Shown here one piece after another: positions 47,727 through 50,142 of a stretch of DNA of 64,000 bases. Position 1 is the stretch's first letter. Each line of letters begins with the position of its first letter. The stretch is from NCBI RefSeq assembly GCF_011320115.1, contig NZ_JAANOZ010000002.1:124001-188000 (forward strand), written 5' to 3'. The notes under the pieces were generated by a model. That model was not told the DNA's origin. It saw only the letters and a list, made by a program, of their open reading frames with translations, and ran no database searches. The position numbers were made by a program, and so were the translations under genes. The DNA comes from Croceibacterium segetis (GTDB taxonomy: Bacteria; Pseudomonadota; Alphaproteobacteria; Sphingomonadales; Sphingomonadaceae).

Positions 47727-48929
47727 TTACCGCAGCGTGACGACGTTGTCGCTGACGCGGTGGTCGGCGCGGCCGGTGTAGAGGCTGGCCATCGGCTCGT
47801 CCTCCACTGTCACCGCGATCGCTTCGCCGAAGCCGTTGAAGCCGGTCTTCATGGCCGCGCCGTAAGCGCCGATCATGCCGATCTCGATATAGTCGCCCGC
47901 CTGGATGTCCGCCGGCAGCATGAAGGGGCCCTTCATGAAGTCGCCGTCGTCGCAAGTCGGGCCGTAGAACGAGAACTCGGCGAGCGGCTGGGTGAGGTCG
48001 TCCTCGAGGGCCATGACCGGGAAACGCCAATCGATGTGCGCGGCGTCGAACAGCGAGCCGTACGAGCCGTCGTTGATGTAGAGTTCGTCGCCGCGCCGCT
48101 TCTCGACCTTGACGATCAGGCTGCTGTATTCGGCGCACAGCGCCCGGCCGGGCTCGCACCACAGCTCGGCCGAGTACGAGATCGGCAGCGCTTCGAAATG
48201 GCGGGCGATCAGGGCGAAGAAGTCCTCCAGCGGCGGCGGCTCCATGCCGGGGTAGCTGCTCGGGAATCCACCACCGACGTCGACGATGTCGACCGTCACC
48301 GCCGCCTCGGCGATCGCCGCGCGGACGCGTTCGAGCGCCTGGACGTAAGCGAACGGGGTCATCGCCTGGCTGCCGACGTGGAAGGCAATGCCGAGCGCGT
48401 CGCAATGCTGGCGAGTGGCCTGCAGCAACGGGGCGGCATCGGCGAGATCGACGCCGAACTTCGAGGCAAGCGAATACTCGGAATATTCCGACGAAACGCG
48501 CAGCCGCACGAGGAGGTTGAGGTCGCTCGCGGGCGTGCCGTCTTCAGCCGCGGTGGCCTCGACGATCTTGGCGAGTTCCTCGTGCGAATCGAGGCTGAAC
48601 GTGCGCACACCGTGCTGGTGATAGGCTTCGGCGACCGCGTTGCGGGTCTTGACCGGATGCATGAAGCACAGGGTGGCGTCCGCCAGCAGCGAGCGCACCA
48701 GCCGCACCTCGGCGATCGATGCGACGTCGAAGTGGGTAATCCCGGAATCCCACAGCACCTGCAGCAGGTCAGGCGAGGGATTCGCCTTCACCGCATACAT
48801 CGACTTGCCCGGAAACTTCTCGGCGAAGAATCGGGCGGCGCGCGCAGCGGCGTGCGGGCGATTGAGGATAACCGGCTGATCCGGCGCGAAGGCGCGGGCT
48901 ACAGTCGATGCGTCGGGATAGCTGTGCAA
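47727..48929 (-). CDS. Ornithine/lysine decarboxylase, alanine-racemase fold
   Basis: PLP-dependent decarboxylase that forms putrescine (or cadaverine). The 400 residues are of the eukaryote-like fold-III type: PLP lysine in KSMYAVKANPSPD (Lys48), IVDVGGGFPSSYPG and EPGRALCAEY bind the cofactor, and the catalytic Cys is in YGPTCDDGDF. The start is a TTG at 48929. Just upstream, a 12-bp stem hides a GGGGG ribosome-site-like stretch, and a 36-codon leader frame runs through it. A deoxyhypusine-synthase-like gene lies 160 bases upstream, so the pair probably makes a longer polyamine. Confidence 0.92.
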   Translation of the reverse strand: MHSYPDASTVARAFAPDQPVILNRPHAAARAARFFAEKFPGKSMYAVKANPSPDLLQVLWDSGITHFDVASIAEVRLVRSLLADATLCFMHPVKTRNAVAEAYHQHGVRTFSLDSHEELAKIVEATAAEDGTPASDLNLLVRLRVSSEYSEYSLASKFGVDLADAAPLLQATRQHCDALGIAFHVGSQAMTPFAYVQALERVRAAIAEAAVTVDIVDVGGGFPSSYPGMEPPPLEDFFALIARHFEALPISYSAELWCEPGRALCAEYSSLIVKVEKRRGDELYINDGSYGSLFDAAHIDWRFPVMALEDDLTQPLAEFSFYGPTCDDGDFMKGPFMLPADIQAGDYIEIGMIGAYGAAMKTGFNGFGEAIAVTVEDEPMASLYTGRADHRVSDNVVTLR

Positions 48930-49009
48930 CTCAAGGGACCCCCAAAACAGTCGTTAGCGATAAGCTGCCTTGCGGTTTGGAAGTCCCCATGGGGCAGCGG
49001 ACGGCGCAT
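48899..49009 (-). CDS. Candidate leader reading frame of the ornithine decarboxylase
   Basis: A 36-codon frame begins at ATG 49009 (GCGGAA upstream), reads MRRPLPHGDFQTARQLIAND at its start and ends 31 bases inside the decarboxylase gene in another frame. It runs through both arms of the stem that hides the decarboxylase ribosome site, so its translation would open that stem. Protein sequence is not recognised; whether it is made is untested. Confidence 0.5.
   Translation of the reverse strand: MRRPLPHGDFQTARQLIANDCFGGPLSCTAIPTHRL
48935..48987 (-). promoter_or_regulatory. Structured 5' leader of the ornithine decarboxylase gene
   Basis: On the minus strand GGGACTTCCAAA (48987-48976) pairs with TTTGGGGGTCCC (48946-48935) in 12 unbroken pairs, two of them G-U, around a 29-base loop. 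The downstream arm contains the only ribosome-site-like GGGGG, 10 bases before the TTG start. The fold would block translation unless opened. Ornithine decarboxylase genes of alphaproteobacteria are known to carry a conserved leader (the speF motif); identity with that motif is not established here. Confidence 0.65.
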
Positions 49010-49089
49010 ATATTCCGCTTCCCCTGAACTGCAAGTGAAAACGCGCGAAACGGGCGTGGCTGTGGGTAAGTCGAGTTGGGGCCCAAGCC

Positions 49090-50142
49090 TCACTCGAACA
49101 GCTTCGCCCAGCGCCTCGGCGTGCGCGTCTTCCACGCCTCGCGGTGGTAGGCGTCGCTGGCGAGGAGCGGCATCACGCTGCCGGCCTCGGCGAAGACCAT
49201 CTGCTCGATGCCGGTGTTGACCTTGCCCCAGCTGGCGGCCTCCTGCAGCGTCGAGGACGAGCAGGCGCCGTCGCGCACGTCGGCGACGGTGATCTGCACC
49301 GCGTACTTGTGCACCGCGACGTCCTCGTGGCCGAGGATCTCGGCACACACCACCGTGTCCTGGATGAAGTTCTTGGGCACCCCGCCGCCGACCATCAGCA
49401 GGCCCGAATCGCCGCTCTCGATCTTGATCTGGGTCAGCTCGCGGAAATCGGCCACGGCGTCGATCATCAGGTAGGGCTTGCCTTCCTTCATCCGGTCGAC
49501 CTGGTGCTTGACCAGCCCGAACCCGGCCGAGCTGTCGACGAACGCCGGGCAGAAGATCGGCACGTCATGCTCGTAGGCAAGCTTGACGAGGGAATTGTCC
49601 TTCTTGCCGTGCTCGACGAGGAACCTGCCCATCTCGCGGATGAACGCGCGGCTGGAGTAGGCCTTGGGCTCGAGCTCGTTGGCGATCTTGTTGATCGTGA
49701 AGTCGCAGTCCTGCAGCTGCTCCTCATCGATATAGGTGTCGTAGATGCGGTCGATGTAGAGCGAGCGCAGCGTGTCGTCGTCAGGGATTTCAAGCGCTTG
49801 GTAGTGTTTGTGGCCAAGACCTTCGAAGAAATCCATGTCGACGATCGTCGCCCCGGTGGCGACCACGCAATCGACCATGTTGGAGCGAATCAGCTCGGCA
49901 TAGAGATCCATGCAGCCCGCTGCGCTGGTCGAGCCGGCGATCACCAAGAAGATCGTGCAATCCTTGTCCTCGAGCATCTGGTTGTAGATGCGCGTGGCGC
50001 GGGCAAGGTCGCGGCTGGTGAAGCTCATCTTGCCCATCGCGTCGATCAGCGGGCGCGCGTCGAACTGGCGAATGTCGATGTGCTCGACGGTGGTCGAAAG
50101 CAGCTCGGCCTTGCGCGTGTCGTTGATCTTGGTGTCGTTCAT
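49090..50142 (-). CDS. Deoxyhypusine synthase-like enzyme, probable homospermidine synthase (SpeY type)
   Basis: Bacteria do not make hypusine, and DHS-like proteins in several lineages make homospermidine. The 350 residues have AGSTSAAGCMDLYAELIRSNMVDCVVATGATIVDMD (NAD site), FCPAFVDSSAGFG, GGGVPKNFIQDT and the catalytic Lys at 307 in EAASWGKVNTG, matching the essential Lys of eukaryotic DHS. The gene precedes an ornithine decarboxylase on the same strand, which would supply putrescine. AAGGAT precedes the ATG. The product is inferred from family and context. Confidence 0.85.
   Translation of the reverse strand: MNDTKINDTRKAELLSTTVEHIDIRQFDARPLIDAMGKMSFTSRDLARATRIYNQMLEDKDCTIFLVIAGSTSAAGCMDLYAELIRSNMVDCVVATGATIVDMDFFEGLGHKHYQALEIPDDDTLRSLYIDRIYDTYIDEEQLQDCDFTINKIANELEPKAYSSRAFIREMGRFLVEHGKKDNSLVKLAYEHDVPIFCPAFVDSSAGFGLVKHQVDRMKEGKPYLMIDAVADFRELTQIKIESGDSGLLMVGGGVPKNFIQDTVVCAEILGHEDVAVHKYAVQITVADVRDGACSSSTLQEAASWGKVNTGIEQMVFAEAGSVMPLLASDAYHREAWKTRTPRRWAKLFE

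Follow-up and report, generated by a model that had tools for sequence, protein, structure and literature searches.

An odc1-Type Leader Element with a Shielded Ribosome-Binding Site and an 11-Codon Upstream Frame before a Putative Ornithine Decarboxylase Gene of Croceibacterium segetis

Introduction

The SpeFL leader peptide of enterobacteria acts on an ornithine decarboxylase via an upstream frame. Described regulators of polyamine genes include this enterobacterial speF leader (PMC6386406), the speF motif RF00518 (Corbino 2005; PMC1273637), and the spermidine riboswitch, a SAM-I variant of narrow distribution that keeps the four-stem SAM-I architecture (PMC10853860). The odc1 (uORF-25-1) motif was reported in RNA Biol in 2021 with 272 alphaproteobacterial examples (PMC8632094), and this paper alone describes it in the literature searched. 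In this motif, an extended stem bears the Shine-Dalgarno (SD) sequence in its right shoulder, the 5' end forms a pseudoknot with the loop, and the main start is UUG; a second UUG lies two nucleotides upstream of the main one, and the 11-aa upstream open reading frame (uORF) shows no length variation (PMC8632094). In E. coli reporters carrying the Sphingomonas echinoides motif, both starts were used, the uORF about 3-fold more than the gene, with modest effects in this host (PMC8632094). The conserved nucleotides just before the pseudoknot were needed mainly for the main start, and mutation of strictly conserved positions just ahead of a pseudoknot strand of the S. echinoides motif abolished expression of the main frame (PMC8632094).

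In this study, the leader of a decarboxylase gene was analyzed in a 64,000-nt stretch of Croceibacterium segetis DNA (hereafter, the window) and compared with these systems. All the features considered are located on the minus strand.

Genomic Context and Distribution

The decarboxylase gene encodes a group IV (alanine-racemase fold) enzyme, which probably acts on ornithine; its nearest relatives of solved structure are lysine/ornithine decarboxylases. TTG 48929 opens the coding sequence, and the preceding gene, which ends at 49090, encodes a deoxyhypusine-synthase-like protein, a probable homospermidine-type polyamine enzyme by its family assignment. Of 80 related loci, 25 have a gene of this type upstream of the decarboxylase, on the same strand and no more than 3 kb away. 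The matched NCBIfam model is named '1,9-bis(guanidino)-5-aza-nonane synthase', an agmatine-coupling enzyme, yet the adjoining gene resembles ornithine decarboxylase. The same gene pair has been proposed for homospermidine synthesis in Zymomonas, where arginine is the suspected substrate of the decarboxylase (PMC8594446). The features of the locus are listed in Table 1.

Table 1. Features of the decarboxylase locus in the window (RNA elements from 5' to 3' of the transcript).
Feature	Position	Strand	Remarks
Deoxyhypusine-synthase-like gene (upstream neighbour)	49090..50142	-	PF01916, 1e-88; NCBIfam NF002699, 565 bits (cutoff 500)
-35 box TTGCAG	49029..49034	-	Predicted own promoter of the decarboxylase gene; 16-nt spacer; consensus match only
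-10 box TATATG	49007..49012	-	Contains the ATG of the 36-codon frame; conserved in relatives
5' pseudoknot strand GCUGCC	48993..48998	-	Predicted transcript 5' end; pairs with 48964-48969
Left arm of stem (anti-SD) GGGACUUCC	48979..48987	-	Partner of 48935-48943; paired in 97.2% of cells (179 sequence-anchored rows)
Unpaired loop CCGCAA	48970..48975	-	Just 5' of the 3' pseudoknot strand; near-invariant columns in aligned leaders
3' pseudoknot strand GGCAGC	48964..48969	-	Partner of 48993-48998
Right arm of stem GGGGGUCCC	48935..48943	-	SD is GGGGGU, 48938-48943; GGRGGU in nearly all relatives
uORF MSCTAIPTHRL	48899..48934	-	UUG 48934-48932, stop TAG 48901-48899; overlaps the decarboxylase gene in another frame
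Decarboxylase gene, UUG start	47727..48929	-	PF02784 (2.8e-36) and PF00278 (Pfam)

Leaders of relatives from Croceibacterium, Erythrobacter, and Novosphingobium were aligned. The DNA upstream of 80 related genes proved strikingly conserved and consisted of the promoter, the block CCGCTGCCCCA(A/T)GGGGACTTCC-n-AACCGCAAGGCAGC, a variable stretch, and GTTTGGGGGTCCCTTGA(G/A)TTG. A covariance model, R1, was built from 43 leaders. In the C. segetis genome, it detected one copy and no second one (other matches had E > 5). Among 248 sampled Sphingomonadales genomes, 163 were matched, all of them from the family of C. segetis, and a protein search of the same sample placed the element in 163 of the 163 family members that possess the decarboxylase gene; the sole member without the element is also devoid of a decarboxylase orthologue. 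The gene directly follows the element in 141 family loci examined (located by the model or by coordinates). No R1 match was obtained in 26 orthologue-bearing genomes of other families, and the element was not seen in 10 of the 11 leaders of such orthologues examined at first. Three matches found outside the family in a class-wide search, about the number expected by chance, were discarded, since none precedes a decarboxylase gene. An intrinsic terminator, the sign of transcriptional attenuation, was not found.

Structure of the Leader RNA

The first-pass annotation of this DNA had described a stem burying the only GGGGG stretch ahead of the TTG start, and that description was borne out. The minimum free energy fold of 48899-49009 has an uninterrupted 13-pair helix (helix B) including GGGGG 48943-48939, the sole SD-like stretch before TTG 48929, and the helix is conserved in about 200 relatives; AAA 48976-48978 extends the stem by pairing with U 48944-48946. 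Since the region is no more stable than its dinucleotide shuffles (z of -0.31 for 48899-49009 and -0.73 for 230 nt), stability alone is no proof, and the stem needed comparative support. When sought in close relatives, it was present and conserved, with a near-invariant 3' arm (GGRGGUCCC) and 5' arm core (GGGAC). The covariation that the annotation had proposed to look for appeared in part: compatible changes occur and pairing is kept, but double-sided changes are few (for example, GGCUUC/GGAGGCC in L099), because the 3' arm is nearly fixed as the SD; the pairing in L173 is ACCUCC/GGAGGU. Nested folding of 184 leaders gave a median unpaired probability of 0.002 for the SD, which was almost wholly hidden in 86% of them. 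In one genus, the stem is reduced to GGGAC/GUCCC and most of GGGGG lies outside that helix, which counts against the explanation preferred below.

The 5'-terminal strand and its partner form helix A, which was paired in 98.7% of cells across 181 sequences, the rows being anchored on sequence and not on pairing. The number of double-sided changes was 18, versus 1.2 +/- 1.0 in shuffled data (0 of 500 shuffles), and the covariation count on alignment A2 agreed with this result. Rare compensating types included GCAGCC/GGCUGC, GUCGCC/GGCGAC, GUUGCC/GGCGAC, and GCCGCC/GGCGGC. When the leaders were placed on a tree built from the downstream coding sequence, the third pair showed about 10 changes per side, and the independent pairs agree in direction, each test being too small for significance. 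The 5' arm of helix B lies within the loop of helix A; thus, the two helices together form a pseudoknot. Seven leaders, L099 among them, have a hairpin inserted in the first loop, which suggests that a local hairpin can form alongside both helices. Keeping the 5' helix as a plain hairpin in a nested fold cost a median of 7.3 kcal/mol relative to the stem fold, with the pseudoknot energy left out, and this modelled penalty would count against the explanation preferred below. The positions mutated in S. echinoides would correspond to CCGCAA 48970-48975. In four leaders, a long insert of tens of nucleotides separates the 3' pseudoknot strand from the SD arm; this loop thus tolerates large insertions. 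A tertiary pairing of CAAGG with CCUUG near the start was rejected by eye, as its variants are without compensation.

Promoter and Upstream Frames

In 185 aligned leaders, the -35 element reads TTGCA/TTTACA and is spaced 16-18 nt from the -10 box. The best -10 boxes of relatives are TATATC (41) or TATATG (32) and mostly end 8-9 nt before helix A. This arrangement would probably place the transcription start at about 48999-49003, a few nucleotides before GCUGCC.

A 36-codon ATG frame (49009-48899), noted in the first-pass annotation, does exist and ends within the decarboxylase gene, but it is not a functional unit. Its ATG belongs to the -10 box and occurs at that site in only 37 of 81 relatives, with varying frames and stops; the distance from the helix to the start codon is split over the three frames (71/60/54), and the first 25 codons show no conservation as coding sequence. 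An ATG within a -10 box can look like a leader gene, which calls for caution.

The last 11 codons of this frame, beginning just 3' of the stem, constitute the uORF. It depends on the same hidden SD as the main start and begins 5 nt upstream of it, the start pair being UUG-AG-UUG (48934-48927). Of 199 relatives, 194 have a uORF of exactly 11 aa; UUG serves as the uORF start in 192 of the 199 and as the main start in 194. Under synonymous resampling of the enzyme gene, 4.4 frames of 11 codons were expected (maximum 10), versus 78 observed in 80 genes. Codon 10 of the decarboxylase is GTA in 78 of 81 genes, GTA making up 3.7% of their other Val codons; it must be GTA in these genes because the uORF stop needs it. 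The same resampling identified T4, I6, L7, T8, H9, and L11 as over-conserved uORF residues, with L11 in 69 of 80 (5.7 expected) and L7 in 58 (5.0 expected). As shared ancestry inflates codon statistics, a whole-gene scan of synonymous constraint was used as a control for it. The four highest-scoring columns all fell in the overlap, where the summed z reached 156, versus a mean of 27 (sd 11, maximum 62) in the other windows of the scan. The peptide consensus depends on the clade, ending in ILTHRL in one and IIARWG in the other.

These comparative statistics show selection on the structure as well as on the length, stop, and residues of the uORF. The first-pass annotation was right in predicting an RNA control element here, in its concealment of the decarboxylase ribosome site, and in the participation of a short upstream frame that overlaps the gene. 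In two leaders, L107 and L177, the stem or pseudoknot has decayed and the 11-codon stop is gone too, leaving uORFs of 48 and 22 aa; the main start of L107 is ATG. This joint decay suggests that the RNA structure and the uORF are coupled.

Diverged and Outlier Leaders

Two genera from a different Sphingomonadales family (L272/L278 and L273/L279) have, ahead of the orthologous gene, the sequence UUGCCGA-AUC-GGGCCUUC-GCAACG-UCGGCAA, followed by GGAGGUCYC-AUG-A-AUG. The two pairs of leaders share an identical 31-nt core and differ in their spacers. Helix A has 7 pairs in this form, GGCCUUC can pair with GGAGGUC, the uORFs are of 6 codons (MNGLLP and MNGLLY), and the AUG starts are one nucleotide apart. 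The core was absent, at up to 3 mismatches, from the other 246 genomes of the order and from 385 genomes of the class, and no description of a form with a 6-aa AUG uORF was found in the literature searched. Its layout and gene context, rather than a model score, suggest that it is akin to odc1. Such a diverged form may show which nucleotides matter.

An AT-rich member of the family (L163) has a very divergent leader with AUG starts (AUGAGAUG) and a compensated change of C-G to U-A in helix A. Zymomonas is presumably a member of the same family as C. segetis. The protein level of its homologue, ZMO1020, shifts several-fold on ammonium changes (PMC8594446), a response that could stem from the odc1 RNA.

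Proposed Mechanism and Alternatives

The best explanation of these data, which we regard as likely, is that the decarboxylase mRNA opens with a cis-acting odc1 RNA, which combines an SD stem, a pseudoknot, and dual starts. Transcription probably begins a few nucleotides before GCUGCC; the extended stem pairs the single SD with the upstream anti-SD, and the pseudoknot joins the 5' end to the large loop of the stem, with the near-invariant CCGCAA alongside. In the closed state, the SD would be blocked for both starts; in the open state, one SD would feed two competing UUG starts, that of the uORF and that of the decarboxylase, and the pseudoknot/CCGCAA region may tilt initiation towards the latter. 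The uORF start lies about 4 nt and the main start 9 nt beyond the final G of the SD core, so that the usual optimum of SD spacing falls between them. The modest reporter effects in E. coli count against this explanation. Regarding the input, our guess is negative feedback by one of the pathway's own products (a polyamine or a close precursor); an input from the polyamine pathway is the most plausible because the gene probably makes putrescine and has a deoxyhypusine-synthase-like neighbour. An unlikely extension of the scheme would be a polyamine-pathway sensor that chooses between two starts served by a single concealed SD, in which the 11-aa peptide would add a second, peptide-level sensor and whose principle would have diverged in the sister family to another sequence with a 6-aa AUG uORF.

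Several other readings were weighed against it. A riboswitch proper, in which CCGCAA and the pseudoknot would form an aptamer, a ligand would lock the SD stem, and the uORF would be a by-product or decoy, is a tentative candidate that falls somewhat short of an even chance. It fits the near-invariant unpaired CCGCAA of the aligned leaders and the H-type pseudoknot architecture with a hidden SD, and it was also proposed by the authors of PMC8632094; no ligand was reported there, however, and in a mere by-product one would expect neither the 11 codons of 194 out of 199 relatives nor the GTA of 78 out of 81. In another reading, the uORF would act as a metabolite-sensing arrest peptide analogous to SpeFL, where a stall on or near the stop would block the decarboxylase start 25-30 nt upstream; its fixed length fits this, and stop-adjacent residues (L11 and L7) are among the most constrained. 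Nevertheless, this reading appears doubtful: the two clades end their peptides differently (ILTHRL and IIARWG), the structure upstream shows conservation independently of the frame, the codon statistics are inflated by shared ancestry, and the uORF was translated in the published reporters, for which no stalling was described (PMC8632094).

A ligand-free RNA thermometer or static attenuator that merely lowers translation seems quite improbable. The weak UUG starts and an SD held in a stem with G-U pairs would suit it, but neither a near-invariant unpaired loop nor a covarying pseudoknot would be expected. The switch envisaged in the first-pass annotation, where translation of the 36-codon leader through the stem opens it and the enzyme is made, is scarcely credible. 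The ORF is present in this genome, but its ATG forms part of the promoter, ahead of the probable start of transcription, and most relatives lack it or have it in another frame (an ATG in 37 of 81, variable frames and stops, and the 71/60/54 distances), which rules out opening of the stem by translation through it. Under the preferred reading of an SD stem, pseudoknot, and dual starts, the element represents a clear case of an orphan regulatory RNA awaiting its signal, and it sits on the gene with which polyamine synthesis apparently begins in Sphingomonadaceae.

Comparison with Known Systems

No Rfam 15 family matched the element. The speF covariance model (RF00518), named in the first-pass annotation, found no match in the window at the gathering threshold, in 48700-49300 at E up to 10, in nine relatives at E up to 5, or in the C. 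segetis genome; identity with the speF motif was rejected, as the region remains below the model cut-off even at permissive thresholds. Both are alphaproteobacterial leaders of the same kind of decarboxylase (COG0019), but the speF leader is about 400 nt long with another sequence and structure, and true speF matches in the class look unlike the window element. SpeFL likewise has an upstream frame before ornithine decarboxylase, whereas its enzyme family and leader are different, and the uORF of the window overlaps the gene start and shares its SD. The spermidine riboswitch also controls polyamine genes, but the window element has no Rfam SAM-I match.

By its described features, the element before the decarboxylase gene is the odc1 motif already published in 2021. 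The two share an alphaproteobacterial host, a position ahead of an ornithine decarboxylase gene, an extended stem with a large loop and the ribosome-binding site in its right shoulder, a pseudoknot of the 5'-terminal nucleotides with the loop (here the covarying GCUGCC/GGCAGC), conserved nucleotides adjoining the pseudoknot, a UUG main start with another UUG two nucleotides upstream, and an 11-aa uORF; no separating difference was seen in the features compared, the comparison being made with the published description. Beyond that description, the present analysis adds the promoter position, a test of selection on the uORF stop and length, the occurrence of one copy per genome across the family, the hairpin inserts in the first loop, and the diverged version in a sister family. 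With the promoter and start placed and natural compensatory variants supplied for mutational tests, the comparison makes the odc1 element of this locus testable.
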